From: Gemmatimonadota bacterium
Lineage (GTDB): Bacteria > Gemmatimonadota > Gemmatimonadetes > Gemmatimonadales > GWC2-71-9
DNA length: 35,255 nucleotides
Assembly (NCBI GenBank): GCA_003222055.1
Contig: QHUT01000144.1
Location: 1-35,255 of the forward strand
Direction: 5' to 3'
The notes beneath the pieces are model-generated. The model was not told the origin of the DNA. It did not search any database and worked only from the letters and a program-made list of their open reading frames with translations. The stretch's first letter is position 1. Every line of letters starts with the position of its first letter. Below, one piece after another: positions 7,963-28,735 of the stretch. Both the position numbers and the translations under genes were made by a program.

Positions 7963-7970
7963 GTACTCCC

Positions 7971-8294
7971 TCAGTCGCCCTTGAGCTTGACGTCGGCGAT
8001 CTTGATTTCCGTGAACTGCTGGCGGTGCCCGCCGTGGCGCCGGTAGCCGGTGCGCCGGGCGAAACGGTAGATCTTGATCTTCTTGCCCTTGCCGTGGCGC
8101 ACGATCTCGGCGGTCACCTTCGCCCCTTTCACCACCGGCTTTCCCGCGTGCACCTGCTTGCCATCGCTCGCGAGCAGGACCTGATCGAACGTCACCTTGC
8201 TCCCGGGCTCGGCCGCGAGCAACGGGACCTTGATGGTGACCCCGGGCTCGGCGCGGAATTGCGCCCCACCGGTCGAAAAAATGGCGTAGGTCAT
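7971..8294 (-). CDS. rplU: 50S ribosomal protein L21
   Basis: The 107-residue product ([18 protein letters not shown] ... [28 protein letters not shown]) matches L21, including the conserved basic RRxGxRRxxGHRQ motif that contacts 23S rRNA. It is the first gene of the rplU-rpmA pair. A strong promoter-like pair lies immediately upstream, and no Shine-Dalgarno site precedes the ATG (GCCCTC before ATG), so a nearly leaderless mRNA is expected. Confidence 0.97.
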
Positions 8295-8303
8295 GAGGGC
8301 GGA

Positions 8304-8332
8304 ACTCTACTCGTGGCTTGGAGTTCGGTCAA
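8304..8332 (-). promoter_or_regulatory. Sigma-70-type promoter of rplU-rpmA
   Basis: Read on the - strand, TTGACC (8332-8327) and TAGAGT (8309-8304) are separated by exactly 17 nt. Transcription would start near 8297, only 2-4 nt before the rplU ATG at 8294. The boxes and spacing are seen directly; activity is inferred. Confidence 0.62.
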
Positions 8333-8381
8333 GGGGGTGCGCGGCGCGCGGGAGCGACCGCGCACGGCGTACTGCGTACCC

Positions 8382-9953: not shown

Positions 9954-10184
9954 AGCAAGTGCCCTCGACCCCGGTCGGCCAACAGCCGGTCGGGATCCTA
10001 CGATTGTTCCAGCAGAAACTCATGCCGCTGAGATCAGATCCGGATGAGTCGAACCGACTGGACGAGAGTCGCCCGGGCGACGTTGCGGCGGCGCCGGGGA
10101 GCGAAAACGACCCTCGAGTCCAATGCATACTGTAAATATAAGCGCCCTTGCAACTTACGTCAACCGGGGCGAACTTATTGGCCC
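9954..10184. other. Divergent intergenic region between rng and prolyl oligopeptidase gene
   Basis: These 231 nt separate divergently transcribed genes and should hold both promoters. An A+T-rich patch at about 10125-10142 (containing tgtaaatataag) stands out from the G+C-rich surroundings and is the best candidate for a -10 element, but no convincing -35 partner is seen on either strand. A direct repeat of ccggtcgg lies at about 9970-9995. Confidence 0.4.
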
Positions 10185-12347: not shown

Positions 12348-13568
12348 CTAGTCCACGAGGTCTCCGAGCAGCTGGCGAGCGATAACGATTCGCTGGATCT
12401 CGCTCGTGCCTTCACCGATCTCGCAAATCTTGGCGTCCCGCATCATCCGTTCCACCGGATAATCCGTGGTGTAGCCGTAGCCGCCGTGCAGCTGGACCGC
12501 CTTGGTCGTGGCGCGCATCGCGAGCTCGGACGCGTACAGCTTCGCCATCGCCGCCTCGCGCTTGAACGGCTGACCGTGCTGCTTGAGCCACGCGGCGTGG
12601 TACACCAGGTGCTTCGCGGCCTCGATCTCGGTGGCCATGTCGGCGAGCGCGAAATGCACGCCCTGGAAGCTCGCGATCGGCCGGCCGAACTGCTTGCGGG
12701 TCCCCGTATAGCGCAGGCACTCCTCGAGCGCCCCCTCGGCGATGCCGAGCGATAGTGCACCCAGACCGACGCGACCCCCGTCCAGCGTGTGCAGGAACTG
12801 GCGAAATCCGTTGTTCAGCGGGCCGAGCACGTTCTCCCTCGGGACGATCGCGTCCTGCAAGACGAGCTCGCGGGTATCCGAGGCGCGCCAGCCGAGCTTG
12901 TCCTCCTTCTTCGCCGCCAGGACGCCCGGGCACTTGGGGAGCGACGGGTCATGGCCCACACCGACCCGTTTGGCCTGCTCCAGGTCGGTCGTGTCCTTGG
13001 TGACGATGAAGGCGCTGATGCCGTGCGTCTTCTTGGCGGCCGGGTCGGTGCGTGCCGTGACCACGAAGATTTCGCCCACGCCGGCGTGCGTGATGAAGAT
13101 CTTGGAGCCGTTCAACACGAAGTGGTCGCCCTTGTCCACCGCGACCGTCTGCGTCCCCCCCGCATCCGAACCGGCCCCGGGCTCCGTCAGGCCGAAGCCG
13201 CCCAGCACCTTCCCCGTTGCGAGCAGTGGCACGAACCTCATCTTCTGCTCGTCGGTCCCAAAATCGACGATCGGCGATGTGCCGAGCGTCGTATGGGCGC
13301 TGACGGTGATGGCGTGACTGGCGTCGACCTTGGCGAGCTCGTGGATGACGAGGATGTAGGAGAGATAGTCCATGCCGGAGCCGCCCAGCTCCTCCGGCCA
13401 GGGAATGCCGAACAACCCCAGATCCGCCATGCGGCGAACGTTGTCCCAGGGGAACGCGCTGTCGCGGTCGTACCGCGGCGCGCTGGGCTTCACGACCTGC
13501 TGCGCGAAGTCGCGCACCATGTCGCGGACCTGGAGGTGGTGGTCGGTGAAGTAGAGGGAGTCGTGCAT
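12348..13568 (-). CDS. Acyl-CoA dehydrogenase (short/branched-chain type)
   Basis: A 406-residue FAD enzyme that oxidises acyl-CoA to enoyl-CoA and passes electrons to ETF. Visible landmarks are the N-terminal helical start ([21 protein letters not shown]), the FAD/substrate motif [16 protein letters not shown], the second signature with [20 protein letters not shown], and the catalytic Glu in [11 protein letters not shown]. The length matches SCAD and isovaleryl-type enzymes. The frame is open upstream to 13883, but that extension has no family similarity. The ATG at 13568 is chosen because homologues begin there. There is no Shine-Dalgarno site; TATATT ends 7 nt upstream of the ATG, which hints at a leaderless message. 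Confidence 0.94.
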
Positions 13569-13830
13569 GGTCAGAATATAGAGACTGAGTAAACGGGCGA
13601 AGACATCCAGATGGCTGCGCGAGGGCGGTGGACAGTGACTGGCTGCAACGTGCGCTGCGGCAACATCCTTCACATACACCATACCGCGACAACCGCGCTG
13701 GCCTGGAGCTCGCGCCCTTGCGGTGCCCGCACGTCCGCTTGTACGAACCGTGCTCCCAGCGGCGCCCGAGCAAACCCTTAGAATCCGAAGAACTAGCAGC
13801 ATCGCTGACCCCACTGGGAGGGCGGATCCG

Positions 13831-13855
13831 AGGTAGTGGGTCAAACCCACTACCT
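13831..13855. repeat. Perfect 11-bp inverted repeat (operator or hairpin)
   Basis: The arms aggtagtgggt (13831-13841) and acccactacct (13845-13855) are exactly complementary around a 3-nt centre. The element sits 15 nt upstream of the candidate -35 box of the EPS operon. No T-run follows, so a binding site for a dimeric regulator is at least as likely as a terminator. Confidence 0.6.
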
Positions 13856-13869
13856 GCGCTGAGCTGTTC

Positions 13870-13898
13870 TTGACGCGTCCCATCGCGCGGGATACGTT
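13870..13898 (+). promoter_or_regulatory. Candidate promoter of the exopolysaccharide operon
   Basis: TTGACG (13870-13875) and TACGTT (13893-13898) are separated by 17 nt and precede the first EPS gene. The -35 box is strong and the -10 box weak. Transcription would start near 13905, leaving a leader of about 65 nt (start 13970) or 220 nt (start 14126). Confidence 0.42.
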
Positions 13899-14125
13899 AA
13901 CCGCCTGCTGCGTGCCGATCGGTGTCGGGGCGCGTGCGGTGTCCCGGCGCTCGACGCTGAGGGGTTAGGATGTTGGCGGGATCAGCATTGGGACAATCGG
14001 CAAACGGTCTCCTCCGCCCCTCAGTGGTGAAGAAGGATGCCTCTGCGCTCCGCCGCTGCTGTCGGTCGGCGAGTCCCCTCCTCACGCCCCGCCCGGGGCG
14101 GCGTCGTGTGCTCGAGGCCACCGGT

Positions 14126-15637
14126 ATGACCGGGCCTGAACTTCAGGCCGTTCGCACTCCCCCCGGCATGCCGCGGCCCGCCCCGTTGTGGCGGTCCACC
14201 CCGTGGGAAAGGCCGGGCACCGAGTTCACTCGTCGGGCGTTCCAGGCAACCGATCTGCTATCTGGACTGCTCGCGCTTGGCGCAGCGTTCCTCGCTCTCA
14301 ACCTCGATCAGCTGCCGCGAGGCCTCGGGGAGTTCCTGGCCCTCCGAATCACGGTCCAGAAGGTCCTGCTGCTGGGTGTGTTCGCGGCCTGCTGGAATCG
14401 CGCCTTCAGCTCGCTGGGCCTGTACCGGCGGTCGCGCATCGCCGCCGAGGGGCAGGAGGTCGCTCGCATCGCGGCCGCCTGCTCCCTGGGGACGTTGCCC
14501 ACGTTGCTCTTCGTGCTGTTCAGTGCGACCCGATCTTTCACCGTTGAGACGGTGCCCCTGTTCTGGACGATCTCGATCGCAGCCGTCATCGCCATGCGGG
14601 AGGCGATCCGCGCTCTGGGGACCTCCCTTTCCGATCAGGGACCGCGAGACGTGCTGGTCGTCGGCAGCGGGCCACGAGCGCAAGCGTTGTGTCGGGCGCT
14701 GTCTGAGTCCGCTGGCGGGGGCACGAACGGCGCAAGGCTAGTGGGTTTCGTTGACACCAACCACGGGGTGACCGAGCAGGTCGTCCGGCAACGATGGCTC
14801 GGCACCCTGGAGGACCTGGAAACCGTGCTCATGCGCAGGGTGGTGGACGAGGTGATCATCGCTCTCCCGTTCAAGTCGTGCTACCAGCAGATCCAGAATG
14901 TCATCCACACCTGCGAGCGAGTGGGTGTCCAGTCCACCTATCTTGCGGACATCTTCCAGCCCTCGCTCGGGCGGGTGCGCTACGAGCACATGCATCCGTT
15001 CGCGATCGCGACCGTCAAGGTCGTCCAGGATGACTTCCGGCTGGCGATCAAACGCGCCGTCGATGTCGTGGGAGCCGCGCTCGGCCTGCTGTTGCTCGCC
15101 CCCCTGCTCCTGGTTATTGCGGCCACCATGAAGCTGACTGACCTTGGCCCGGTCCTCTTTGCGCAGCAGCGCTATGGACTCAACAAGCGACTGTTCCGGA
15201 TGTACAAGTTCCGCACGATGGTGCCCGGTGCTGAAGCGCTCCAGTCGACCTTGGAGGGGCAGAACGAAGCGCAGGGTCCGGTATTCAAGATGGCCAAAGA
15301 CCCCCGAGTGACCGGGATCGGGGCTCTCCTCCGGAGAACGTCCCTCGACGAGCTCCCGCAGCTCTGGAACGTGCTCAAGGGTGAGATGTCGCTGGTGGGC
15401 CCTCGACCGCTGCCGGTGCGCGACGTCGGACGGTTCGAGGAAGGATGGCTGATGCGCCGGTTCAGCATGCGGCCGGGGCTCACTTGTCAGTGGCAGATCA
15501 CCGGCCGAAGCCATCGCGGATTCGATGCCTGGGTGGGTCTCGACCTGGAGTACATCGACAACTGGTCGCTGCGACTCGACTGCCTGATTCTGCTGAAGAC
15601 GATTCCAGCCGTTCTCCGGGGCACAGGGGCCCAGTGA
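14126..15637 (+). CDS. Polyprenyl-phosphate sugar-1-phosphate transferase (WbaP/EpsZ-like, EPS initiation)
   Basis: A 503-residue membrane protein that attaches the first sugar-phosphate of the repeat unit to undecaprenyl phosphate. Order: N-terminal membrane segments (about 43-60, 76-92, 113-133, 145-160), a Rossmann-like domain (DVLVVGSGPRA, 175-185; GFVD at 207-210), a membrane helix at 311-334, and the catalytic PGT domain with MYKFRTMVPGAE (359-370), the catalytic Asp-Glu of SLDELPQLWNVLKGEMSLVG (406-425), and GPRPLP. GAGG lies 8 nt before ATG 14126. An alternative ATG at 13970 has a better ribosome site (GAGGGG, 5 nt) but would add an Arg-rich tail unlike the family. It is the first gene of the EPS operon; the stop overlaps the next start (GTGA). 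The sugar transferred (Gal-1-P or Glc-1-P in relatives) is unknown. Confidence 0.93.
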   Translation: MTGPELQAVRTPPGMPRPAPLWRSTPWERPGTEFTRRAFQATDLLSGLLALGAAFLALNLDQLPRGLGEFLALRITVQKVLLLGVFAACWNRAFSSLGLYRRSRIAAEGQEVARIAAACSLGTLPTLLFVLFSATRSFTVETVPLFWTISIAAVIAMREAIRALGTSLSDQGPRDVLVVGSGPRAQALCRALSESAGGGTNGARLVGFVDTNHGVTEQVVRQRWLGTLEDLETVLMRRVVDEVIIALPFKSCYQQIQNVIHTCERVGVQSTYLADIFQPSLGRVRYEHMHPFAIATVKVVQDDFRLAIKRAVDVVGAALGLLLLAPLLLVIAATMKLTDLGPVLFAQQRYGLNKRLFRMYKFRTMVPGAEALQSTLEGQNEAQGPVFKMAKDPRVTGIGALLRRTSLDELPQLWNVLKGEMSLVGPRPLPVRDVGRFEEGWLMRRFSMRPGLTCQWQITGRSHRGFDAWVGLDLEYIDNWSLRLDCLILLKTIPAVLRGTGAQ

Positions 15638-16308
15638 GCTTCGCTACACGTAAGAACCGTCCGGTCCCGTGGAGGCTGCTGTCGTCGGCGTACGCACTCG
15701 TCGCGTTTGTTCTCGCCTGCGCGAGCGCAGCACCTGCCCAATCTACCTCCCGCCCAGATGCGGCGGTCCGGGCCAGCTCGACCTCGATCCGGCCGGGCGA
15801 CGTGGTGCGCGTGCGCATCTGGCGGGAGCCGGATCTGTCCGGGGAGTTTGTCGTGGACGAGACCGGGACCGTGGTGCTTCCCAAGCTGGGAGCCCGGACG
15901 GTCACTGGCGAATCCGCAGCGTCCTTGCGGGCCGAGCTAATGCCCGTCTACGAAGCGTTCCTCTCCCACTCCTCCGTCGAGGTGACGGTGCTGCGCCGTC
16001 TGCTGGTCCTCGGCGCGGTACGCAATCCGGGCCTTTACACCGTGGACCAAACGATGACGGTCGAGGACGGGCTGGCGCTCGCCGGCGGGCCCACACCGGT
16101 AGGCACTCCCAACCACGTGGAGTTGATCCGTCACGGGCAGAAGCAGCCGGTCCGCCTCACCCTGCGGACCCAGCTCACCGATTCGTCTATTCGGTCGGGG
16201 GACCAGTTGTACGTCCCCGAGCGCAGCTGGATCAGCCGGAATCCGGGCGTTCTCGTGGGGATCGTCTCGGTGGTCGCCACCACACTGGTGCTCGCGCTTC
16301 GTCATTGA
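15634..16308 (+). CDS. Polysaccharide export protein (Wza-like, SLBB)
   Basis: A 224-residue product starting at GTG 15634, which overlaps the TGA of the transferase gene. It has an export signal (residues ~14-36, with Cys29 in VLACAS as a possible but non-ideal lipidation site). The Poly_export domain follows (IRPGDVVRVRIWREPDLSGEF, ~52-120), then one SLBB repeat (LGAVRNPGLYTVDQTMTVEDGLALAGG, ~126-175). The protein ends in a hydrophobic helix (NPGVLVGIVSVVATTLVLAL, 203-222). Family members form the outer-membrane or periplasmic channel that secretes Wzx/Wzy polymers and contact the Wzc kinase, encoded next. It is shorter than E. coli Wza (about 380 residues, more SLBB repeats), and the terminal membrane helix suggests inner-membrane anchoring or a simplified pore. 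Confidence 0.9.
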   Translation: MSFATRKNRPVPWRLLSSAYALVAFVLACASAAPAQSTSRPDAAVRASSTSIRPGDVVRVRIWREPDLSGEFVVDETGTVVLPKLGARTVTGESAASLRAELMPVYEAFLSHSSVEVTVLRRLLVLGAVRNPGLYTVDQTMTVEDGLALAGGPTPVGTPNHVELIRHGQKQPVRLTLRTQLTDSSIRSGDQLYVPERSWISRNPGVLVGIVSVVATTLVLALRH

Positions 16309-16315
16309 GGGCACC

Positions 16316-18673
16316 ATGAGCCACGACGTCACTCACTCCCAGGGCTTACGGTCCCCGTCCCTCGACGGGGCGCCGGCCGGTTTCCTACCCGGAGCGGGCG
16401 CGGCCGAGCTGGTCGATATCTTGCGGCGCCGTCTGTGGTCGATTCTCGGGTGCACGGTTCTGTGCGTCGGAGCCGCGGTCCTTTACGTTGTCCTGGCGCG
16501 ACCGTCGTACCGCGCGGAGGCCGCGATCCGGATGGATGATCGGCGGCAGCCGATCCCCACCTTGGACGTTCTGGCCCTGTACAGGGGCAACGAGCTCAGC
16601 ACGGAGATCGAAATGCTCGGCAGCCGGACTCTGGCGGAGGACGTGGTGGCCGCGCTCGGCCTGCAGCTCGAGATCACCAAGCCACGGGCCGTGCTGCGCG
16701 AGGAGGTCTTCGCCTCGGTCCGGGTGACCCGTGACGCACCGGCGGCGACGTACAGGCTCGAGCCCGCCGATAGTGACGGGTTCGTTGTGCGGAACGATTC
16801 CAGCGAGGCGGTGCTGGGGCGGACCGTGCCCGGCAAGCCACTCACGTTCGCGGGGGTCGAGCTCGAGGTGTCGCCTCACGCGCTGGGCCTCGGGCCGGTC
16901 GCGTTCTCGGTGGTCGCTTTCGACGACGCGGTACGGGGTCTCCGAAAGGCGCTCTCGATCAAGCGCCGGAACCGAGAGGCCAACATCGTGGACGTGGGCT
17001 ATCGGGGAACCGATCCGCAGCTGGTCCAGGCTGTGCCCAATCTGCTGGCGACCCGTTTCATCATCGACCGCCAGAAGACGCAGCAGACTGAGACCCGGAG
17101 CACGGGGGCCTTCCTGCGCGACCAGACGGCGAAGCTGGCGCGGCAGCTGCGGGCGTCGGAGGACAGCCTGGAGCGGTTCCGGGTGGTCGAGCACATCGTC
17201 AGCCTGCCGCAGCAGGCGAGCAGCGGCGTAACCCAGTTCGCGGAGCTGCAGGCGCAGCGCAACGCCCTCGATGCCGAGCGCCGGGCGCTGGAGCAGCTGC
17301 TGAGCTCGACGGCCTCGTCGGTGGCCGGCTCGACACAATCCACCCCGATCGCATTCCCGACACTGCTTCGCAACGAGGTGGCCGCGAGCTTGCTCAGCGC
17401 GCTGGCTCAGACGGAGGACCGGCGCAGTGAGCTGCTGTCGCGGCGGTCACCGCAGGACGCCGACGTTCAGGTGCTGACCCGGCGCATCGAAGACCTGCGC
17501 GCGCAGCTTCGGGGCATCGCTGCGACCTACCTGCAGGGTCTCAGTAACCAGGTGGTGGCGATCGACCTTACGCTAGCCAAGTCCAACGCCCAGTTGCAGA
17601 CCATCCCCGCCAAAGAGATCCGTCTCGCGCAACTTGAGCGCAACGTCAGCGGGCTGGCGCAGATCTACACGCAGCTGGAGTCGCGGCTGAAGGAGTCTGA
17701 GATCGCCGCAGCGGCGGAAGACCCCAGCGTGCGGCTGGTGGACGCCGCCCTACTTCCCCGTGAGCCGGTCAGTCCCCGGCGCGCGTTCAGTATCGTCCTG
17801 GCGCTGTTGGGGGGACTCACTCTCGGGCTAGGCGCAGCACTCACGAGGGAACACCTGGACCGGGCGGTACATACGCGCCACGACCTGCTCGCGGTGACGG
17901 GCAGGCCGGTTCTGGGCATCATTCCCCACGCAGACGGCGAGATGTGGTCCGCTCGTCTCGCTCGGGGTAAGGGCCCCGGGCGCGCGCGCCGGCGGCCCAT
18001 CGGGGCTGGCAGCCGTGCGGAGCTCGCTGAGGCCTTCGTCCGGTTGGCTACGAACGTGAGCTTCGCTGGCCCGAACGGACCGCCCCAGGTGGTGACGGTT
18101 ACCAGTGCGCTCCGGGGCGAAGGCAAGACCACCAGCGCCGTCAATCTCGCGCTCGCTAGCGCCAACGGCCGAAGGGTGCTGCTGATCGACGCGGACCTAC
18201 GGTGCGGGACGATTCACGCCCTCTTCCGGCTGTCCCGCACCCCGGGGCTCGCCGAGGTGCTGGCTGGCTGGATGCCTTTGGAGAACGCCGTGAGGCGGAT
18301 GGACACCGGAGATGGCACCCACGTCGATGTCCTCCCGGCAGGCTCGGCGGTCAATAATGCCTCGCAACTGTTGTGGCGCGCGGATCTAGACGGGCTACTC
18401 GTGCGGCTGCGCGCGGCATACGACCTGATCGTGATCGACTCCCCGCCGATGAATGTCGTGGCCGACGCGACGCTCCTCGCCCCTCAGAGCGACGCGGTGA
18501 TCGTGGTAGCGCGTGCCGGGCGCACGGCGCCGGAAGCGCTGAATTTTACCCTGGAGCAGCTGCGCAGCGTGCACGCGCTCGTGTGGACGGTGTTGAATGA
18601 CATCGACTACCGACGGGACCGAGTGTACGGCCGGGCCTACGGCCAGCGCGCAAGTTATCTGGAGACAGAGTAA
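16316..18673 (+). CDS. Wzc-like polysaccharide co-polymerase / BY-family tyrosine autokinase
   Basis: A 785-residue inner-membrane protein. The Wzz chain-length domain begins at about residue 30 (ELVDILRRRLWSILG) with TM1 at ~42-61. A periplasmic coiled-coil region follows, TM2 is at ~488-508, and then comes the cytoplasmic kinase: Walker A SALRGEGKTTSA (K604), Walker A' LLIDADLRCG and Walker B DLIVIDSPP. The C terminus has four tyrosines (Y765, Y771, Y775, Y781), the autophosphorylation cluster that cycles with a phosphatase to control polymer length and export. GAGGG lies 5 nt before the ATG. No matching Wzb-type phosphatase gene lies in the window. The gene is 7 nt downstream of the Wza-like gene in the same operon. 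Confidence 0.94.
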   Translation: MSHDVTHSQGLRSPSLDGAPAGFLPGAGAAELVDILRRRLWSILGCTVLCVGAAVLYVVLARPSYRAEAAIRMDDRRQPIPTLDVLALYRGNELSTEIEMLGSRTLAEDVVAALGLQLEITKPRAVLREEVFASVRVTRDAPAATYRLEPADSDGFVVRNDSSEAVLGRTVPGKPLTFAGVELEVSPHALGLGPVAFSVVAFDDAVRGLRKALSIKRRNREANIVDVGYRGTDPQLVQAVPNLLATRFIIDRQKTQQTETRSTGAFLRDQTAKLARQLRASEDSLERFRVVEHIVSLPQQASSGVTQFAELQAQRNALDAERRALEQLLSSTASSVAGSTQSTPIAFPTLLRNEVAASLLSALAQTEDRRSELLSRRSPQDADVQVLTRRIEDLRAQLRGIAATYLQGLSNQVVAIDLTLAKSNAQLQTIPAKEIRLAQLERNVSGLAQIYTQLESRLKESEIAAAAEDPSVRLVDAALLPREPVSPRRAFSIVLALLGGLTLGLGAALTREHLDRAVHTRHDLLAVTGRPVLGIIPHADGEMWSARLARGKGPGRARRRPIGAGSRAELAEAFVRLATNVSFAGPNGPPQVVTVTSALRGEGKTTSAVNLALASANGRRVLLIDADLRCGTIHALFRLSRTPGLAEVLAGWMPLENAVRRMDTGDGTHVDVLPAGSAVNNASQLLWRADLDGLLVRLRAAYDLIVIDSPPMNVVADATLLAPQSDAVIVVARAGRTAPEALNFTLEQLRSVHALVWTVLNDIDYRRDRVYGRAYGQRASYLETE

Positions 18674-18677
18674 TCGG

Positions 18678-19577
18678 ATGCCGGATGAGTGCCCGGTTGC
18701 ACGAGATCCGGCACGCGACGGCGACTGGGACGGCCGGTCGTTAGCGGAGGACTGTCGGCCGAAGGTAGCGTTGTTAGTAAACGTAGTGGCTCCGTATCGA
18801 GTCCCGATCTACGAGGCGCTAGCCCGAAGCTTCCGCCTCACGCTCCTGTATGGTGGGGGCGAGGACAATCGCAGCATGTGGTCCGCTCCGGAGGTTCGCG
18901 GTGCTGCGGTGAAACGGTCCCGCGGCTTCGTGTTCAAGCGCGCCCAGCGCGCGCGCCGGGGTGGCGTCTGGGAGAACCGCTATCTCCACATTACCCCCGG
19001 GTACCTGCCGGACCTCTGGCGCACGAGACCAGACGCGGTGATCACGAACGAGATGGGCTTCCGCACGTTGGTCGCTCTCCTTTACGCCACGGTATGTCGC
19101 AAGCCGGCCTGGATCTGGTGGGGCGGTACACTACACACGGAACGCTTCATCGGTCGATGCCGCCGTCTGGTACGCTCCGTGATCGTGGGCTGGGCCAAGC
19201 GTTGGATCAGCTATGGGGACAGTTCCACGGAGTATCTCGAGAGCCTGGGGGTGCCGCGAACGGATATCGTTCAGATCCAAAACGCTGTGGACGAGCAGGC
19301 CTTCGTAGCCGGCGGCCCGCGCGCCCTTGATCTGCGGCCGAGACCCGTAGTGCTGTGCGTTGGGCGCATGGTGAAGCTGAAGGGTATTCAGCATCTGCTC
19401 GATGCGTGCGCTCTTGTGCAGGGGGAGGGTGTTCGTTTCACCCTTGTGATGATCGGTGACGGGCCCGAGCGAGAGGCACTGGAGCGTCGTGTGCGCGAGC
19501 TCGGGCTGGAGGATGTTCACGCCCTGGGAGAAGTGGCCCCCGACCAGAAGATTCGGTTGCGTTTGCATCCAAGCTGA
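18678..19577 (+). CDS. GT1/GT4-type glycosyltransferase, truncated at the C-terminal domain
   Basis: The N-terminal GT-B domain is intact (KVALLVNVVAPYRVPIYEALA, TLLYGGGEDNRS, WIWWGGTLHTERF, SYGDSSTEYLESLGVP). The second domain begins normally (VVLCVGRMVKLKGIQHLLDAC, LVMIGDGPEREALERRVRELGL, VHALGEVAPDQ). After that the frame runs into an unrelated RLRLHPS and stops at 19577. The part that should follow, with the nucleotide-sugar-binding E-x7-E motif, is absent. The expected C-terminal tail appears in another frame at 19547-19711. About 299 residues remain against about 370-400 in the family. ATG 18678 lies 4 nt after the Wzc stop; no good ribosome site is seen. Either a decayed gene or an assembly deletion; it is probably not a working transferase as written. 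Confidence 0.78.
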   Translation: MPDECPVARDPARDGDWDGRSLAEDCRPKVALLVNVVAPYRVPIYEALARSFRLTLLYGGGEDNRSMWSAPEVRGAAVKRSRGFVFKRAQRARRGGVWENRYLHITPGYLPDLWRTRPDAVITNEMGFRTLVALLYATVCRKPAWIWWGGTLHTERFIGRCRRLVRSVIVGWAKRWISYGDSSTEYLESLGVPRTDIVQIQNAVDEQAFVAGGPRALDLRPRPVVLCVGRMVKLKGIQHLLDACALVQGEGVRFTLVMIGDGPEREALERRVRELGLEDVHALGEVAPDQKIRLRLHPS

Positions 19578-19711
19578 AGCAGGCAGTCACTGAAGGTCTT
19601 GCAGCGCCGGACACGTCACGAATGTCGCCCATCCGGGTGGTGGCTGCAGGGCTCGTGGGGGACATCAACAGGATTCTCGAATCACGTGGGTTGGTGGCTG
19701 CGCGTGTCTGA
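19547..19711 (+). pseudogene. Out-of-frame C-terminal remnant of the truncated glycosyltransferase
   Basis: Reading from 19547 in the frame two bases ahead of the truncated gene gives EDSVAFASKLKQAVTEGLA and continues to a stop at 19709-19711. This matches the usual final helices of GT-B enzymes (a 'D-x-x-AFA-x-x-L-x-x-A' helix). Together with the missing ~60-80 residues before it, this points to an internal deletion whose size is not a multiple of three, joining near 19540-19550. Confidence 0.62.
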
Positions 19712-19721
19712 GTTCCCTCCG

Positions 19722-20927
19722 ATGCGCGTCCTCGTCCTGCACAATTATTATCAGCAACCGGGGGGCGAGGACCAGATCTTCGCTGCGGAAACACGCCTGC
19801 TGGAAGCGCACGGCAATGAGGTCATCCGTTTCACGATGCACAACGATGTCATACGTGAGCTGGGACCTTTGCACGCGGCCAAGAACCTGTTGTGGAACCG
19901 TGACGTGTACGCTGAGCTTCGCGGACTGATTCGGAAGACACGCCCGCAAGTCATGCACTCCCACAACACGTTTCCACTGATTTCTCCCGCCGCTTACGGT
20001 GCCGCTCGAGATGAAGGGATTCCCGTCGTCCAGACGCTGCAGAACTTTCGATTAGTGTGCGCTAACGCGTTTCTGTTTCGCGAGGCGAAGATTTGCGAAG
20101 ATTGCATCGGTAGACGGGTGATGTGGCCGGCCGTGTGGCACAGGTGCTATCGTGGCAGCGCTGCCGCAAGCGCGGCCGTGATCGCGATGCTGCATTACCA
20201 CCGTGTGCGCCGCACATGGAGCGAGTTGGTGCATCTCTACCTCGCGCCGACGGAATTCGTCCGTGGCAAGCTGATCGAGGGCGGACTGCCGCCGGAGAAG
20301 GTCCGGGTCAAGCCCAACTTCGTCGATTGGAACTGCGTGCCGCCGACGAACAGGGGAAAGTACATGCTGTTTGTCGGTCGGCTGTCGCCGGAAAAGGGGG
20401 TTCGCACACTGCTCGCCGCGTGGAGTTCACGTTCCGACCTGCCTCCGCTCCGCATTCTCGGGGACGGACCGCTACGTGGGGAGGTTCAACGGACCGTTGC
20501 ACAAAGCTCCCGCGTGCAATGGCTCGGGCATAGGTCTGGTGAGGAAGTGCAGGCCCAGATGCAGGATGCGAGTGCGCTCCTGTTTCCGTCAGAATGGTAC
20601 GAAGCGCAACCGCTCGTGGTGATCGAAGCGTATGCCGCCGGACTTGCGGTGATCGCGAGCGCGATCGGAGCGGCCGCATCGCTCATCGAACCGGGTCGGA
20701 CCGGATTGCTTCATGCGCCTGGGGAATGGGCTGATCTCGCGGACAAAGTGCTTTGGGCCCGGGAACATCCGAATGAGATGCGGGCCATGGGTGCGACTGG
20801 ACGGGCTCGCTTCGAGGAGCGATACACGCCTGCGATCAATTATCGCTTACTGCGCGACGCGTACGCGTGCGCCGCGGCGACCCGGCGGGATCTGGGCTCG
20901 CGCACACAGTCCAGATCCACCGTGTGA
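19722..20927 (+). CDS. GT4 family glycosyltransferase
   Basis: A 401-residue GT-B enzyme beginning MRVLVLHNYYQQPGGED, the typical N-terminal beta strand and glycine loop. The acceptor domain has HSHNTFPLISPAAY. A cysteine group (CANAFLFREAKICEDCIG ... HRCYRGS) is characteristic of one GT4 subgroup and may bind a metal or be structural. The donor domain has LFVGRLSPEKGVRTLL, ILGDGPL and the E-x7-E motif (E294, E302 in EWYEAQPLVVIEAYAAG). It should add one sugar to the lipid-linked repeat unit on the cytoplasmic face. The ATG at 19722 is chosen from the family N terminus; the frame is open to 19599 and no ribosome site is seen. Confidence 0.92.
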   Translation: MRVLVLHNYYQQPGGEDQIFAAETRLLEAHGNEVIRFTMHNDVIRELGPLHAAKNLLWNRDVYAELRGLIRKTRPQVMHSHNTFPLISPAAYGAARDEGIPVVQTLQNFRLVCANAFLFREAKICEDCIGRRVMWPAVWHRCYRGSAAASAAVIAMLHYHRVRRTWSELVHLYLAPTEFVRGKLIEGGLPPEKVRVKPNFVDWNCVPPTNRGKYMLFVGRLSPEKGVRTLLAAWSSRSDLPPLRILGDGPLRGEVQRTVAQSSRVQWLGHRSGEEVQAQMQDASALLFPSEWYEAQPLVVIEAYAAGLAVIASAIGAAASLIEPGRTGLLHAPGEWADLADKVLWAREHPNEMRAMGATGRARFEERYTPAINYRLLRDAYACAAATRRDLGSRTQSRSTV

Positions 20928-20935
20928 CACCTCGC

Positions 20936-22474
20936 ATGCGTGAACAGAGTCGGGATGCGCCACTAACCAACTCGTTGAGCGAACGCGCCGTCACCGCAGG
21001 CCAATGGCGTGTTGGGTCGATGCTCCTGCAGGGCGTGCTGCAGTTCGGCGTCGGTGTTCTGCTGGCCCGCCTCGTCCCGCCGGGAGACTTTGGTGTAGTT
21101 GCACTCGCCGTCGTCGTGGTGGGCTTCGCTACGATGCTGGCCGACCTCGGCCTGGGGCCGGCGATCGTGCAGCGCCGGCAGCTCACGGATTCACACCTCC
21201 GGGTCGCGTTCACGGCGTCCATGCTCGTGGGGCTCGGGATGGCGGCGGCGCTCATGCTGCTTTCCCCATGGATTGGCGCTCTGGCGCGCGACCACACGCT
21301 TCCGGCCGTGCTGCGGGTGCAGGGACTCCTGTTCATCGCTACGGGATCGGGCACGGTGGCCCGCGCGCTGCTGCAGCGCAATCTCGATTTCCGACGGCTC
21401 TTCGTCATTGAGGTGGCGAGCTATACGGGGGGATACGCGTTGGTGGCCGTCGGCGGCGCACTCGCCGGGTGGGGGGTCTGGAGTTTGGTGCTCGGGTCGC
21501 TGGTGCAGGGCCTGCTGTCCAGTGTACTAAGTCTGCTCGCGGTACGTCCGCCCGTTCGTCCCCTCTTGTCGCGTGCTGAGCTCAGACAACTCCTCGGGTT
21601 CGGCCTCGGGGTCAGCGTCAACGGCGTCGTGAGTTACGTGGCGCGCAGCGGCGACAACTTTCTCGTCGGGCAGTTATTGGGGGTCACCGCGTTGGGGCTC
21701 TACAGCCGGGCCTTCAACTTGATGATGCTCCCGCTGACCTACATCTGTAGCGCGCTGCCGAACGTCCTCTTGCCCGCGTTCGCGGAGATCCAGGGAGATC
21801 GCAGGCGGGTCGGTCGTGGCTTCCTTGTGAGTTTGCAGCTCACCGCGATGACCACCGCTCCGATCATGGCCGGGATGATCGTCTCTGCACCGCACATGAT
21901 TCGGGGGCTGTACGGTGAGCGTTGGGCAGGAGCCGTGCTGCCGCTGCAAATCCTCTGTCTCGTCGGCCTGCCACGCGCGGTGCACTCCCTTGCCGGCCCG
22001 GTGAACCGCGCGTGTGGACGCGTCTATACCGAACTGTGGTTGCAGATCGGGTTTGCGACCGCGGTGCTCGCAGGCGCCGTGGTCGGAGCAACGCGCGGGA
22101 TTACGGGGGTCGCCCTGCTCGTCTCACTGGCGATCGCACTCATGTACGCCGCGATGGCTCGCCTCGTGCTCACCATCACGGCGGTCACTTGGCGCGCGTT
22201 CGCCATGGCGCAGGTGCCGGGGTTGTTTCTCGGGTTGGTCACTGCGGCGGTGACGATCCCACTGCGGCTTGCTCTCGAATACACCGGGGCGCCGCACCTC
22301 GTCACCTTTGTCGCGCTGCTTCTGGGAAGCGCAGGGTCCGTGCCCTTGGGGATTCTCCTCCTTCCCGTGCCGATGCGCCCGATGGAGCTGTTCGCCCATC
22401 TGCATGCGCCACTCCGTAGGCTCCCGGCCCCGCTGCGGATCGGGCTCACCCACCTGCTTCGGACACCTGCGTGA
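20936..22474 (+). CDS. Wzx-like oligosaccharide flippase (MOP superfamily)
   Basis: A 512-residue, highly hydrophobic protein with about 12-14 predicted membrane helices. It starts with the family signature ERAVTAGQWRVGSMLLQGVLQFGVGVLLARLVPPGDFGVVALA, followed by ADLGLGPAIVQRRQLTDSHLRVAF. It contains the central SGDNFLVGQLLGVTALGLYSRAF motif of RfbX/WzxC-type lipopolysaccharide transporters. It would move undecaprenyl-linked repeat units across the inner membrane. The ATG at 20936 lies 8 nt after the GT4 stop; the frame is open further upstream, but that part overlaps the transferase. The gene's TGA overlaps the GTG of the next gene. Confidence 0.92.
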   Translation: MREQSRDAPLTNSLSERAVTAGQWRVGSMLLQGVLQFGVGVLLARLVPPGDFGVVALAVVVVGFATMLADLGLGPAIVQRRQLTDSHLRVAFTASMLVGLGMAAALMLLSPWIGALARDHTLPAVLRVQGLLFIATGSGTVARALLQRNLDFRRLFVIEVASYTGGYALVAVGGALAGWGVWSLVLGSLVQGLLSSVLSLLAVRPPVRPLLSRAELRQLLGFGLGVSVNGVVSYVARSGDNFLVGQLLGVTALGLYSRAFNLMMLPLTYICSALPNVLLPAFAEIQGDRRRVGRGFLVSLQLTAMTTAPIMAGMIVSAPHMIRGLYGERWAGAVLPLQILCLVGLPRAVHSLAGPVNRACGRVYTELWLQIGFATAVLAGAVVGATRGITGVALLVSLAIALMYAAMARLVLTITAVTWRAFAMAQVPGLFLGLVTAAVTIPLRLALEYTGAPHLVTFVALLLGSAGSVPLGILLLPVPMRPMELFAHLHAPLRRLPAPLRIGLTHLLRTPA

Positions 22475-23607
22475 ATGCCTCGGCGCGAGAGCGGGGCCTG
22501 TTGTGGGGTAGCCTCTTCAGGCAAGTGGTAAGCGCTGGGCCCTCGATCGTGAGTCGCTCAATGGTCACCCTGGCGGGAGAGGTGCTGCGGCTCGTGCCGC
22601 TCCGAGCGCTCCCGCGCCTCATCGCACGAGACGTCGTGGGTTTCTGCTACCACACGGTGTCGGAGTGTCGACAGCCGGCCGTCAGTCATCTGTACTCGTG
22701 TCGGACACCGGCGCAATTCGAGCGCGATCTCGAGTTCGTGTGTCGCGAGTACGAGCCGGTGCCCTATGACGACCTCGTCGCGGGACGTGTAGCCGCAGCA
22801 ACGGGGCGGCCCAGGGCGATCGTCACGTTCGATGACGGGTTGAAGGAATGTTACAGCACCATCCGTCCGCTCCTGCTCAAGTACGGGGTCCCGGCCGTGT
22901 TCTTCGTGACCACCGGACTTCTCGACAATCGGCGGTTGTTCTACCGCAACAAGGTTTCCCTGTGCATCGACACATATCTGCGCCTGTCCCGCACCGAGGC
23001 GGACGCCGCCCGTAGCGACCTTGAGGATCTCATGGGCGCTCCCGTCAGGGGTTGGAGGGACCTCGCGGTGCACCTTCACAGGCTGACGCCGCAAGCCGAG
23101 GACTTGCTCGATGCCGTCTCCGCGCGTTTGGGGGTCGACGCGGACGCCTATCTGCGAACGAACGCTCCCTACCTCACCACCGCCCAGGTTCGCGGACTCG
23201 CAAGAGACGGCTTCACCATCGGCGCCCACGGCCTGGCGCACCTGCGGCTATACTCGATGACGCCGGCAGAGGCCGAAGCCGACATCGTGAGCTCTTGCGA
23301 GACCGTTGCTCGGATGGTGGATAGGCCGACCGTGCCGTACGCTTTCCCGTTTGATGGCCGGGGCGTAAGTCGGGAAATGCTCCGGGCGGTTCGCTCCCAG
23401 CATTCGCATGTAGGGCTATTTTTCGACTCCCGCGGGTTAGCTCGCGACCGGGACTTCGTCATCAACCGAATCGTTGTCGACTCCTCAACGCGCGCGACAC
23501 ACCAGGTCACCAACCTGCCCGCGTATGTACGGAACGCCTATGCCGTGGAACTGGCGCGCGCCGTGATCGCCGCACGGATCCTCCGGTGGCGTGGAGACGG
23601 TGTGTGA
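22471..23607 (+). CDS. Polysaccharide deacetylase family protein (NodB domain)
   Basis: A 378-residue product translated from GTG 22471, which overlaps the flippase stop. NodB landmarks: VGFCYHTVS (H61 region), the catalytic/metal motif TFDDG (119-123) in RAIVTFDDGLKECYS, the His pair in IGAHGLAHLRL, and YAFPFDGRG. Such enzymes remove N- or O-acetyl groups from polysaccharides. No clear signal peptide is seen, so action on cytoplasmic lipid-linked intermediates is possible. The spacing between TFDDG and the HxxxH motif is long (about 130 residues), due to an inserted helical segment. The stop overlaps the next start (GTGA), so it belongs to the EPS operon. Confidence 0.88.
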   Translation: MNASARERGLLWGSLFRQVVSAGPSIVSRSMVTLAGEVLRLVPLRALPRLIARDVVGFCYHTVSECRQPAVSHLYSCRTPAQFERDLEFVCREYEPVPYDDLVAGRVAAATGRPRAIVTFDDGLKECYSTIRPLLLKYGVPAVFFVTTGLLDNRRLFYRNKVSLCIDTYLRLSRTEADAARSDLEDLMGAPVRGWRDLAVHLHRLTPQAEDLLDAVSARLGVDADAYLRTNAPYLTTAQVRGLARDGFTIGAHGLAHLRLYSMTPAEAEADIVSSCETVARMVDRPTVPYAFPFDGRGVSREMLRAVRSQHSHVGLFFDSRGLARDRDFVINRIVVDSSTRATHQVTNLPAYVRNAYAVELARAVIAARILRWRGDGV

Positions 23608-24578
23608 GCCCCGATCTGGGCCAGCCCAGCTCCACCGGCATCGCCGCTCTGTCGGTGGCCGTGTGTATCGCGACCTATCGTCGGCCGGGCGGCCTGGAGC
23701 GTTTGGTAGACGGCCTCGGTGCCCTCCAGTTTTCCCGCTCGGCGCAGCCGCTGCTCGATGTCATCATCGCCGACAACGACCCGCAGGGCTCCGCAGCCGC
23801 ACCGTGCGCCGAGCTGGCCCAGACGTGCCGATGGCCGATGGTGTACGTGGTGGACCCGCGGCGCGGGATTCCGTACGCGCGCAACGCCGCGGTATGCGCG
23901 GCGCGCGAGCGGGGCGCCGAGTTGATTGCGTTCATCGACGACGACGAAGTGCCGGAACCCGCTTGGCTGGACGAGCTGCTCGCCGTGATGGCCACCTATC
24001 AGGCCGACGTGGTCACTGGTCCGGTGCTGCCGCTGTTTGAGGTCGAAGCGCCCGCGTGGGTGCTGCGCGGCCGGTTCTTCGAGCGCCCGCGTTACCAGAC
24101 CGGCGTGCGCTTGGATCGAGCGTACACCGGCAATGTCTTGTTGCGCGCTCGTGTCTTAGACACACTGTCCGGACCGTTCGACGAGCGCAAAGCGCTGTCC
24201 GGCGGGACCGACACACACCTGTTTCTCCAGGTCGCGGATGCGGGGCATCGGATCGTGTGGGCTGATGGCGCCGTGGTGCACGAATGGAACCCACCGAGCC
24301 GTCTCACCGCGCGCTGGCTGGTGCGGCGCGCGTTCCGTGCGAGCAGCAATTGGAGCAGCTCCGAACGGGAGCTTCGTGCATCACTGCCTGTGCGTGTCGC
24401 GCGGATTGCTAAGGCGTTCGGAAGGATGGCGCAGGGCATGATCCTGCTTCCGCTTGGGCTGCTGGCCGGACGGCATCTGCTTGTTCGCTCGCTGCGATGC
24501 CTGGCGATGGGCGCGGGATCCTTGGCCGGACTGGTCGGTCGTGAATATGACGAATACCGGGTTACCCATGGGAGCTGA
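23604..24578 (+). CDS. GT2 family glycosyltransferase, copy 1
   Basis: A 324-residue GT-A enzyme starting at GTG 23604, with GGAG 7 nt upstream and a 4-nt overlap with the deacetylase stop. Motifs: VAVCIATYRRPGG, IADNDP, RGIPYARNAA, the metal-binding FIDDDE (DDD 112-114), and GGTDTHLF (200-207). In its neighbour this last motif is the usual GGEDTD. The C-terminal region ends in hydrophobic and basic segments (GMILLPLGLLAGRHLLVRSL) that may contact the membrane. Over its whole length it is closely related to the next gene, so the pair arose by tandem duplication. It should add a sugar to the repeat unit. The E-to-T and D-to-H changes in the acceptor/base motif suggest changed specificity or activity. 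Confidence 0.92.
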   Translation: MSPDLGQPSSTGIAALSVAVCIATYRRPGGLERLVDGLGALQFSRSAQPLLDVIIADNDPQGSAAAPCAELAQTCRWPMVYVVDPRRGIPYARNAAVCAARERGAELIAFIDDDEVPEPAWLDELLAVMATYQADVVTGPVLPLFEVEAPAWVLRGRFFERPRYQTGVRLDRAYTGNVLLRARVLDTLSGPFDERKALSGGTDTHLFLQVADAGHRIVWADGAVVHEWNPPSRLTARWLVRRAFRASSNWSSSERELRASLPVRVARIAKAFGRMAQGMILLPLGLLAGRHLLVRSLRCLAMGAGSLAGLVGREYDEYRVTHGS

Positions 24579-25509
24579 GACGATCGCACCGGGTCGCACC
24601 CCACGCCTCTGCATCTGTGTCCCGACCTACAAGCGCCCGATCGGGTTGGCACGTCTGCTCCGAAGCATCGATCAGCTACGGTTCGAACGGGTCGGCGAGC
24701 CAGCGATCGAGGTCATCGTCGTGGACAACGACCCCGAAGCGTCGGCGGCCACAACGTGCGCAGAGCTTACCCACACGTCGCGCTGGCCGATCGTGTATGC
24801 GCCTGAGCCCCGACGGGGAATTGCATTCGCCCGCAACGCCGCGGTGCGCACGGCCCAGTCGGGCGGAGCCGAGTTGATCGCGTTCATCGACGACGACGAG
24901 GTGCCGGAACCCACCTGGCTCGACGAGCTGCTCGCGGCCATGGGCGAGTACCAGGCCGACTTCGTCGCCGGCCCGGTGCTACCGACGTTCGAGGGCCACG
25001 TGCCCGGATGGATCCTGAAGGGCAAGTTCTTCGAACGCCCGCGGCACCCGACCGGGACGCGCCTGGAACAAGCCGCCACGTGCAACGTGCTTCTACGCAC
25101 TCGCGTCTTCTACGAGCTGGGCCACGGCTTCGACGAGGGGCTGGGTCTCGCCGGCGGCGAGGACACCGATTTCTCTCTGCGCGCCTGGCACGCGGGCTGT
25201 GTGATCGTTTGGGCGGACGCCGCGATCGCTCACGAATGGAACCCCGTGAGCCGCGCACGAACGGCGTGGTTGCTGCGTCGCGCGTACGCCGTCGGCAACA
25301 ACTGGGGAGCGTTCGACCAGAGGCTCCACCCGCGGTTTCGTGGGGCGATGCGAGGGCTCGCGAAAGGGCTGGTGTCGCTGCCGGCGTCCGTCGTCCGGGG
25401 GCGGCACTCCATCGTCCAATCGCTTCAACTCGTGGCCGTCGGCGTGGGCTATCTGGCGGCGAGGGCCGGGTTCCGGTTCCCCGCATACCGGCACACTGAT
25501 GGTCACTGA
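24568..25509 (+). CDS. GT2 family glycosyltransferase, copy 2
   Basis: A 313-residue paralogue of the preceding gene, overlapping its end. An alternative ATG at 24547 would add 7 residues; neither start has a clear ribosome site. Motifs: LCICVPTYKRPIG, VVDNDPEAS, RGIAFARNAAV, FIDDDEVPEPTWLDELL (DDD 108-110), FFERPRHPTGTRL and the canonical GGEDTDFSLRAW (196-207), which carries the catalytic-base Asp. A C-terminal hydrophobic patch is shared with copy 1. It is part of the EPS operon and should extend the lipid-linked oligosaccharide. Donor and acceptor are unknown. Confidence 0.92.
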   Translation: MGAETIAPGRTPRLCICVPTYKRPIGLARLLRSIDQLRFERVGEPAIEVIVVDNDPEASAATTCAELTHTSRWPIVYAPEPRRGIAFARNAAVRTAQSGGAELIAFIDDDEVPEPTWLDELLAAMGEYQADFVAGPVLPTFEGHVPGWILKGKFFERPRHPTGTRLEQAATCNVLLRTRVFYELGHGFDEGLGLAGGEDTDFSLRAWHAGCVIVWADAAIAHEWNPVSRARTAWLLRRAYAVGNNWGAFDQRLHPRFRGAMRGLAKGLVSLPASVVRGRHSIVQSLQLVAVGVGYLAARAGFRFPAYRHTDGH

Positions 25510-26827
25510 CTCGGGCTCCGGGCAAGGCTGGAGCAGCCACTCCGACACTGCCCCGACGCCCATGGCGCGCCACCTGCTCATTCGCAAGATGCTGCGCGCT
25601 GGAGAGGTCTGCGCAACCGTTGTCGCATTGTTCGTCATCTCGCGGGCGGTCTTGCCGCTATTGCTGTGGGGCAGTGCCGAACTCGCGCGCGATACCGAAC
25701 CGCCTGTACTCATTGAACGGCTCCCTTACTGGCTTATCTATGCCTTTACAACGCTGCAATGTGTGCTGCGCCCACGTCAGCTGCTGCGCGCATTGGCCGA
25801 GAACCCGTTCGTAGCTGCCGTCGTCGCGATTGCCCTGCTCTCCACGTCCTGGTCGGTAGATCCAGGCACGCTGCGGCGCGCCTTCCAGTTGGGGATGTCG
25901 ACGTTGTTCGGCCTTTACTTAGCGTCGCGATATCGGTCGAGGGAGCTGTTGCGACAGCTAGCGATCGTACTCGGCGTGAGCGCGGTGCTGAGCGTTCTAT
26001 TCTCACTCATGCTACCTGAGTACGGCTTGGCACCCAACGAAGTGGCTTGGCAGGGTGTATTCACGCACAAGAACACGCTTGGACAAGCGATGCTCCTGGC
26101 AACCATAGTCTTCACGGTCGCAGCGGAACGCGGGAACGGTTTCCGATTCCTTGCCTGGGTGGGCACGGCCCTTGCGATCGCCCTTATCGTTCTGTCGCGT
26201 TCCATGACCGCCGTGCTCGTCCTCGGAGCGCTTGCTGTCGCGACGCCGTTGGCCCGCCTCTTGCGCCAAGGACGTGCTAAGTCCTTTGTGCTGCTGCTTG
26301 CCGTCTGCTGCGCGCTCTCGGTCGCCCTGTTGGTTGTCGTGAGAGACCGCCAGCTCGTCCTGAGTGCATTAGGCAGGGATGTCACGCTTACCGGTCGTAC
26401 TGCCCTTTGGGGGGAGGTCATCCAACGAATCGCGGACCGGCCGCTGCTTGGCTATGGTTACGGCGCGTTCTGGGTCAACGGTGCGGGGCCAGCCGAAGCA
26501 CTGCGCGCTGCCATCGGATGGGACACGCCGCATTCCCACAACGGCTTCTTGGACTTCTCGCTCGATCTCGGCCTGCTCGGATTGAGCGTTCTTGCCACCG
26601 GGCTTGCCCTTGCGGTGCGACGCGCTTGGAAACGATGGAGCCGCGATCCGAGTGCTGAAGCCCTATGGCCGCTTGTGTTCCTCGTAACCACCATACTGAT
26701 CGACCTGACGGAGAGCCCGCTGTATCAAGGGGGTCTCGTATGGCCATTGTTTGTCTTCGCCGCTACCGTCAGGGCCAAGCCAGCATTCGTTGGAGCCATT
26801 TCCAGCACCGGGCTCATTGATTCATGA
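25499..26827 (+). CDS. O-antigen polymerase/ligase family protein (Wzy-like)
   Basis: A 442-residue polytopic membrane protein with about 10-12 hydrophobic segments. Two signatures of the O-antigen ligase/ExoQ polymerase family are clear: the periplasmic-loop motif VFTHKNTLGQAM, and PHSHNGFLDFSLDLGLLGL after the large loop with TGRTALWGEVIQRIADRPLLGYGYGAFW. It would join flipped repeat units into the polymer on the periplasmic side. The ATG at 25499 overlaps the GT2 gene by 11 nt; MARHLL at 25562 is an alternative start. It is the last + strand gene of the main operon, and its stop overlaps the 3' end of the convergent FkbM gene by 14 nt. Confidence 0.88.
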   Translation: MVTDSGSGQGWSSHSDTAPTPMARHLLIRKMLRAGEVCATVVALFVISRAVLPLLLWGSAELARDTEPPVLIERLPYWLIYAFTTLQCVLRPRQLLRALAENPFVAAVVAIALLSTSWSVDPGTLRRAFQLGMSTLFGLYLASRYRSRELLRQLAIVLGVSAVLSVLFSLMLPEYGLAPNEVAWQGVFTHKNTLGQAMLLATIVFTVAAERGNGFRFLAWVGTALAIALIVLSRSMTAVLVLGALAVATPLARLLRQGRAKSFVLLLAVCCALSVALLVVVRDRQLVLSALGRDVTLTGRTALWGEVIQRIADRPLLGYGYGAFWVNGAGPAEALRAAIGWDTPHSHNGFLDFSLDLGLLGLSVLATGLALAVRRAWKRWSRDPSAEALWPLVFLVTTILIDLTESPLYQGGLVWPLFVFAATVRAKPAFVGAISSTGLIDS

Positions 26828-27584
26828 CGAAAGTAAAGTTCCACCTCTCTGTCTTGACCAGCTTATACCCGTGCTTCTTCAACGTCTTGATCGTGTCCAT
26901 GAATCGCTTCCGATCGAACCGATCTATGGAGTGCCCTTCGTCAAACTCGACCAAAAGACAATCTGGGAATATGCGATCGGAGATCATCTGTTCGAGAACC
27001 ACATACTCCGCCCCCTCGATATCCAATTTCAGGACATCGACGCGCTCGATGGCTTTGCTCTCCATGAATTCGCGGAGAGGAACGCACTCGGCAAGAAAAT
27101 GATCCTCCGTATGTTGCAGATTTACGAGCGAATAGCTGACGTGGCTCGGGTTCCTCGGCGCAAAGAATTTTAGCCGCTCTCTTCGCGACCACAACCCGAC
27201 TGGTGTGAATATGAAGCGCTCCTCGTCAAACACAGGCGTCGCATAGTCGTGATAGTTCAGGTCTTTGACAAGACCGCCGGATGCTTGCTGCAGAGAGTTG
27301 AGAACTGCCGAGACGTGCGCTACGGCCCTCGGCGTAGGATCCACCGTATAGACCGTCACGCCACGACCGACGAGCGAGATGTCAAATGAAATATCCTCGC
27401 CGGCGCCAGCGCAGACCGCGATCGCCCTCGACTTCAACAGGCGCGCGGGCAGCCACCATCCGCCGTCGCCGCTCCCCATCCGGATGAGATCGTCGGGACT
27501 TGCGTCGAGGAGGAAGTAGTTCCGGACCCGCCGGTCGAGTTGGACCAGCCGTCGGACGGCACGCTTCAACATCTCGCTGACCAT
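26814..27584 (-). CDS. FkbM family methyltransferase
   Basis: A 256-residue SAM-dependent methyltransferase. The SAM-binding region is AIAVCAGAGEDISFDISLVGRGVTVYTVDPTPRA; the FkbM hallmark is VDVLKLDIEGAEYVVLEQM, followed by CLLVEFDEGHS. In polysaccharide loci this family often O-methylates sugars. It is encoded opposite to the EPS operon and converges with the polymerase gene. Base composition is clearly less G+C-rich than that of the operon, as in the adjacent epimerase gene, which suggests a separately acquired cassette. An internal ATG 12 nt downstream (MLKRAVRRL) is an alternative start. The target sugar is unknown. Confidence 0.9.
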   Translation of the reverse strand: MVSEMLKRAVRRLVQLDRRVRNYFLLDASPDDLIRMGSGDGGWWLPARLLKSRAIAVCAGAGEDISFDISLVGRGVTVYTVDPTPRAVAHVSAVLNSLQQASGGLVKDLNYHDYATPVFDEERFIFTPVGLWSRRERLKFFAPRNPSHVSYSLVNLQHTEDHFLAECVPLREFMESKAIERVDVLKLDIEGAEYVVLEQMISDRIFPDCLLVEFDEGHSIDRFDRKRFMDTIKTLKKHGYKLVKTERWNFTFVMNQ

Positions 27585-27787
27585 CGCGACTATGGTGCCA
27601 CTCTTAGATCTTCATCATTGTTCATCGCTTCTCCGTAGATGCTCATTAGCGTATCGTGCCGGCGCATACATTCACTTCACCTTGGCGTTTTCGGCTTCCG
27701 AGTCCCTCGCCCCGCTCGCGCGCTGGCCCGCCGGGCGACAGATTGGAAACATCGCACCCTCTTGCGAGAAAGGACATCTCGGAGGTC
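27585..27787. other. Divergent intergenic region
   Basis: These 203 nt lie between the divergent FkbM and epimerase genes and should carry both promoters. No clear -35/-10 pair was found. The first half is A+T-richer than most of the window. GGAGG at 27781-27785, just before the epimerase ATG, is the only clear signal. Confidence 0.35.
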
Positions 27788-28735
27788 ATGGCTAGAATCT
27801 TGGTCACAGGCGGACTGGGTACGGTTGGCAAGGTACTGGTCTGGACCCTCAACAAGCGTGGGCACGCGGTCAAGGTATCCGGGATAGAGCACCATCACGA
27901 ACCGGACTATGTGCGATGTGATGTCGGGAGCTACATGCAGCTCTCACGAATCTTCGAGAATGAGGGTTTCGATTTCGTGTATCATCTCGCAGCCGAGTTT
28001 GGGCGGTGGAACGGTGAGGACTACTACGACCGCCTCTGGGTGTCCAACGTCGTCGGCACGAAGAACCTGCTGCGTATGCAAGAGAAGTACGGCTTCCGGC
28101 TGATCCATTTCAGCAGTTCCGAAGTCTACGGTGACTACGACGGGGTCATGACGGAAGACGTGATGGACAAGTACGAGATTCGCCAGCTAAACGACTATGC
28201 GTTGACCAAGTGGGTGAACGAGCAGCAGATCATGAACTCAGCCACAATGCATCACACGCAGTCCGTCCGCGTGCGCTTGTTCAACACGTACGGACCCGGC
28301 GAGTACTACTCGTCGTACCGCAGCGTGATTTGCGTCTTTATCTACCGTGCCTTGAAGGACCTGCCGTATAAGGTCTATCTCGGCCATCACCGGACCTCCT
28401 CCTATGTGACCGACACGTGCGAGACGCTCGCAAATATCGTTGACAACTTTAAGCCGGGTGAGGTCTACAACATCGGGGGGACGGAGTACCATGACATCAA
28501 GACGGTGTCTGATATGATTCTGGACTACCTCAAGAAGAAGGATACGCGCGTAGAGTATCTCCCCGCGGAGGCCTTCACGACTCGCGACAAGAAGGTCAGC
28601 CTGGACAAGGCGCTTCGCGATCTAAGCCATAGTCCTAAGGTTTCTCTGGTATCAGGCATAGCGCGCACTATCGATTGGATGCGCGACGTGTACGTCAGCA
28701 AAAAGGCACTGGTCCGGCTTGAAGAGTACCTCTGA
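27788..28735 (+). CDS. NAD-dependent epimerase/dehydratase (extended SDR)
   Basis: A 315-residue extended short-chain dehydrogenase acting on a nucleotide sugar. It has the Rossmann motif GGLGTVG (8-14), VYHLAAE, HFSSSEVYGD (catalytic Ser region 109-111), the YxxxK pair Y137/K141 in DYALTKW, and the substrate-side RLFNTYGPGEYYS. It resembles UDP-glucose 4-epimerase and dTDP-glucose 4,6-dehydratase relatives in surface polysaccharide loci; the sequence alone does not decide which. Start: ATG 27788 with GGAGG only 2 nt upstream (tight spacing). It converges with the UDP-GlcNAc 2-epimerase gene, 11 nt apart. Composition is lower in G+C than the main operon. Confidence 0.9.
   Translation: MARILVTGGLGTVGKVLVWTLNKRGHAVKVSGIEHHHEPDYVRCDVGSYMQLSRIFENEGFDFVYHLAAEFGRWNGEDYYDRLWVSNVVGTKNLLRMQEKYGFRLIHFSSSEVYGDYDGVMTEDVMDKYEIRQLNDYALTKWVNEQQIMNSATMHHTQSVRVRLFNTYGPGEYYSSYRSVICVFIYRALKDLPYKVYLGHHRTSSYVTDTCETLANIVDNFKPGEVYNIGGTEYHDIKTVSDMILDYLKKKDTRVEYLPAEAFTTRDKKVSLDKALRDLSHSPKVSLVSGIARTIDWMRDVYVSKKALVRLEEYL

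Follow-up and report, generated by a model that had tools for sequence, protein, structure and literature searches.

We describe a broken GT4-type glycosyltransferase gene on the plus strand of contig QHUT01000144.1 of a Gemmatimonadota bacterium (GCA_003222055.1). The window, that is, the whole stretch of DNA analysed, spans positions 1 to 35,255 of this contig. In the assembly the gene is interrupted, a region present in intact relatives is missing, the true C-terminus of the protein lies displaced behind the break, and the neighbouring gene is conserved. As a matter of judgement, we lean towards a real and recent internal deletion in this gene, which is part of a predicted Wzx/Wzy-type exopolysaccharide (EPS) cluster. 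Such a deletion, of ~166 bp, would have taken out the core of the donor-sugar site and shifted the frame, so that translation would run through nine unrelated codons into an early TGA. This would leave an inactive stub of 299 residues, and the repeat unit would miss one sugar-transfer step unless another transferase stands in. The case is that of an ordinary broken gene or of an assembly slip, not of a new mechanism.

Head and tail of one GT4 protein

The head frame of the gene (ATG at 18678, TGA at 19575-19577, 299 amino acids) resembles its relatives up to ~19547, nine codons ahead of its own stop. It was assigned to the GT4-type GT-B glycosyltransferases by its donor-side domain, whose match to either profile covers the first half only: PF13692 with 44.1 bits (cut-off 27; profile positions 1-68 of 142) and PF00534 with 42.2 bits (cut-off 26.4; positions 15-88 of 172). 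The tail frame opens at 19547 with EDSVAFASKLKQAVTEGLA and comprises 54 codons, followed by a stop (19709-19711). Its translation (19547-19708) reads EDSVAFASKLKQAVTEGLAAPDTSRMSPIRVVAAGLVGDINRILESRGLVAARV, for which the profile scan gave no Pfam match.

Two intact relatives were available for comparison. Scanning genome contigs with the head returned 39 loci, one of which was close (53% identity, query residues 26-278); it lies on CALMWA010000322.1, a contig of an uncultured actinobacterium metagenome-assembled genome (MAG), and is referred to as L049. Its intact GT4 protein forms the C-terminal half of a longer open reading frame (ORF; 2804-4804), which shares 4 nt with the glycosyltransferase gene that follows. 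A plasmid search with the L049 protein then gave a second intact relative on pDEIPE01, a finished plasmid from Deinococcus peraridilitoris (L102; DEIPE_RS23440, WP_015231417.1, 371 residues, ~50% identical to the head). This protein is annotated as GT4, and its gene likewise has a 4-nt overlap with a second GT4 gene.

Head and tail were aligned to these relatives as separate fragments. The head shared 136 of 262 aligned residues with L049 and 134 of 266 with L102. Aligned alone, the tail landed at the C-termini of both proteins, with 19/47 and 17/46 identical residues, respectively. Compared singly with the C-terminal end of L049, it was identical at 19/46 positions (41%; E 2e-8), and against the D. 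peraridilitoris protein at 17/39 (E 9e-6). None of 5000 shuffled tails reached the observed score against either relative, and when 7800 stretches of 54 codons from all six frames of the contig were compared with the C-terminus of L049, the six best all overlapped the tail site. By these alignments the tail is the true C-terminus of the head's protein, and the match is not due to chance.

Gene order is also shared. The gene behind the window's broken gene is 50% identical (196/391) to the gene directly behind the intact L049 protein and matches its Deinococcus counterpart at 150 of 393 positions. A first-pass annotation, made from the sequence alone, had proposed an internal deletion with frame change in an EPS glycosyltransferase, with the terminal segment following the junction in another frame. 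The two intact relatives and the conserved gene order bear out the deletion, and the displaced segment is confirmed by the match of the tail (19547-19711) to both C-termini. As assembled, the gene shows features of a deletion pseudogene, namely intact relatives in the same gene order and a lesion that destroys both the frame and an essential part. Upstream, the three loci differ. Judging from its ORF, L049 is, unlike the window gene, apparently fused to an N-terminal half resembling GT2, and the Deinococcus gene is preceded by a separate GT2 gene with a 4-nt overlap; in the window, a copolymerase gene occupies this place.

The missing segment and the donor site

Between the parts matching head and tail there are 55 residues in both L049 and L102, and 58, 58, 58 and 64 residues in four more distant relatives. 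Base 19547 belongs both to the final codon of the head and to the first of the tail, so that the missing stretch comes to ~166 nt (55 x 3 + 1, with an uncertainty of whole codons), which is not a multiple of three. A segment is thus missing as first annotated, but against the two closest relatives it is slightly smaller than the 60-80 codons that had been estimated. It is the best-conserved part of the protein, with 44 of 55 residues identical between L049 and L102, and it holds the donor-site motif, D-V-W-G-L-V-V-N-E in both. The annotated loss of the donor motif therefore holds, although these relatives have D-x7-E in place of the E-x7-E that had been named. A complete donor domain carrying it is absent from the window gene.

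The D-x7-E of the L049 protein aligns with the E-x7-E region of the solved RfaG (2iv7). Matched through this intact relative, RfaG/WaaG (PDB 2iv7, 2iw1) has the same donor-side GT-B domain by sequence; it is distant, and its own E-x7-E motif, the region absent from the window gene, is intact. In one account EX7E is a motif conserved in PIG-A, a GT4 protein (PMC2446393), and another reports near-total loss of activity when the first E of the motif was changed in the GT4 enzyme GnaT (PMC12856342). The stub lacks the donor motif and therefore should be inactive. By sequence, the head is a remnant of a GT4-type GT-B glycosyltransferase and not a working member, and the gene as assembled almost certainly encodes an inactive enzyme. 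With the donor motif removed, one sugar-transfer step would be lost.

Deletion in the cells or in the assembly

That the deletion occurred in the cells, and not in the assembly only, is favoured by the junction itself, which lacks any repeat that could invite assembly collapse or mislead an assembler. Several observations weigh against this reading. The tail is undecayed, L049 and L102 agreeing with one another there (18/46) no more closely than with it, and its G+C by codon position is still gene-like (0.69/0.50/0.61). The host genome is, moreover, a draft of 173 contigs. An undecayed tail fits a very recent event and equally an assembly slip, and a test for decay is weak at 40-50% protein identity. 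A sizeable minority of our confidence therefore goes to an artefact, in which the organism would carry an intact gene and ~166 bp would have been lost during assembly, for example at a low-coverage join or by collapsing strain variants. The draft state of the assembly (estimated 96.5% complete) and a tail as conserved as among intact relatives speak for it, and many apparent pseudogenes in public bacterial genomes have been attributed to assembly errors (PMC11017572). The absence of tandem and junction repeats argues the other way, as does the absence of the missing piece from the rest of the assembly, but a leftover of 166 bp would be too short to survive as a contig.

EPS and capsule genes are often phase-variable, and the first-pass annotation had suggested a phase-like change, which is the only support for reversible switching by repeats, inversion or a silent cassette. 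This suggestion was not upheld. No tandem repeats were detected at a score of at least 30 in 18600-20000, and inspection of 19300-20000 for short repeats, which the annotation had recommended for the junction, revealed no more than some direct and inverted repeats of 10-17 nt, all of them imperfect and away from the junction. When the missing piece was sought in the window's own assembly, the best match was 40% identical and lay in another open frame of 414 amino acids; the matches were other glycosyltransferase-like frames only, the next gene included, and no silent copy was present. With neither repeat tract, invertible segment nor silent cassette, we regard switching as very improbable. It is also improbable, if less so, that the stub has been retained for a function other than catalysis, for instance an effect on chain length. 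A chain-length precedent makes this conceivable in principle (PMC7023835), and the gene lies directly behind that of a Wzz-like copolymerase; however, the break falls within the second domain and not between domains, the stub ends in nine unrelated residues, and the authors of the precedent credit sugar precursors for the effect seen with EpsF (PMC7023835). We hold out similarly little prospect that a real deletion is under selection, with intact and deleted alleles coexisting, cells differing in sugar addition, or the stub altering chain length.

If the deletion is real, the polymer of this strain would be changed or absent even though the EPS cluster looks complete in other respects, and any structure predicted with this gene counted as active would be wrong. 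If it is an artefact, it serves as a warning about the reference genome GCA_003222055.1.

The surrounding cluster and the origin of the gene pair

Table 1. Parts of the broken gene and genes of the surrounding cluster, in window coordinates.
Feature	Position	Strand	Evidence
Initiating sugar-phosphate transferase	13970-15637	+	Pfam
Poly_export/SLBB export protein (ORF)	15445-16308	+	Pfam
Wzz/GNVR/AAA copolymerase-kinase	16316-18673	+	Pfam
Head: acceptor-side domain (N-terminal) and beginning of the C-terminal GT-B domain, up to ...ALGEVAPDQ	18678-19547	+	Pfam; 53% identity to L049
Deletion junction, ~166 nt (55 codons + 1) shorter than in intact relatives; position accurate to a few bases	19541-19550	+	Head and tail alignment to L049, L102
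Tail: C-terminal end belonging to the head's protein, displaced and out of frame with it; 54 codons and stop	19547-19711	+	Translation, relatives
Out-of-frame run-on KIRLRLHPS (nine unrelated codons) and premature TGA (19575-19577)	19548-19577	+	Sequence, translation
Next gene, intact GT4 glycosyltransferase; relatives directly behind intact first GT4 in L049, L102	19722-20927	+	Pfam, alignments
Polysacc_synt flippase	20867-22474	+	Pfam
Polysaccharide deacetylase	22471-23607	+	Pfam
GT2 gene	23586-24578	+	Pfam
GT2 gene	24454-25509	+	Pfam
Wzy_C polymerase/ligase (ORF)	25340-26827	+	Pfam

By its Pfam matches the region appears to be a Wzx/Wzy-type EPS cluster that otherwise looks complete (Table 1). 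The new stop lies 144 nt upstream of the start of the next gene, whereas the corresponding genes overlap in the relatives, and translation of the next gene may therefore suffer too. The head frame and the next gene now share one frame, with the single TGA between them and no other stop up to where the next gene ends, which is probably coincidental. In a loose look for other lesions, a Pfam scan of 23 window ORFs other than head and tail gave a match for 20 and none for three (7956-10028, 26751-27170 and 31323-32414). Profile cover was partial, possibly normally so, for the deacetylase (22471-23604; the better of two stretches covering 4-46 of 124) and for an amidohydrolase ORF at 5977-7614 (228-344 of 345). 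A plasmid DNA search with 13500-28000 found no match, and a phage protein search gave one weak match only.

Close orthologues were sought in sets of 101 relatives, 395 genomes drawn from the phylum, 394 drawn from the class and the whole family of 102, each including the window's own genome. For the first GT4 gene, none turned up among the 9 further genus genomes, the 101 further family genomes or the samples drawn from class and phylum; the best matches in these sets had 33-38% identity, too distant to fix the junction base by base. A GT4 gene in another genus of the family (L008, 1156-2289; 34% identity to the head) had one TAG inside the reported match, which probably lies just ahead of the gene start, since the listed ORF of 377 amino acids looks full length. 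The second GT4 gene likewise had no close relative in the other 9 genus genomes, and a literature search on D. peraridilitoris polysaccharide found nothing. The closest relatives found for the GT4-GT4 pair (18678-20927) are those on the Deinococcus plasmid and in the actinobacterial MAG. This distribution, with no close relative of either gene in the rest of the genus and none of the first gene in the rest of the family, suggests that blocks of EPS genes have been exchanged horizontally between phyla.
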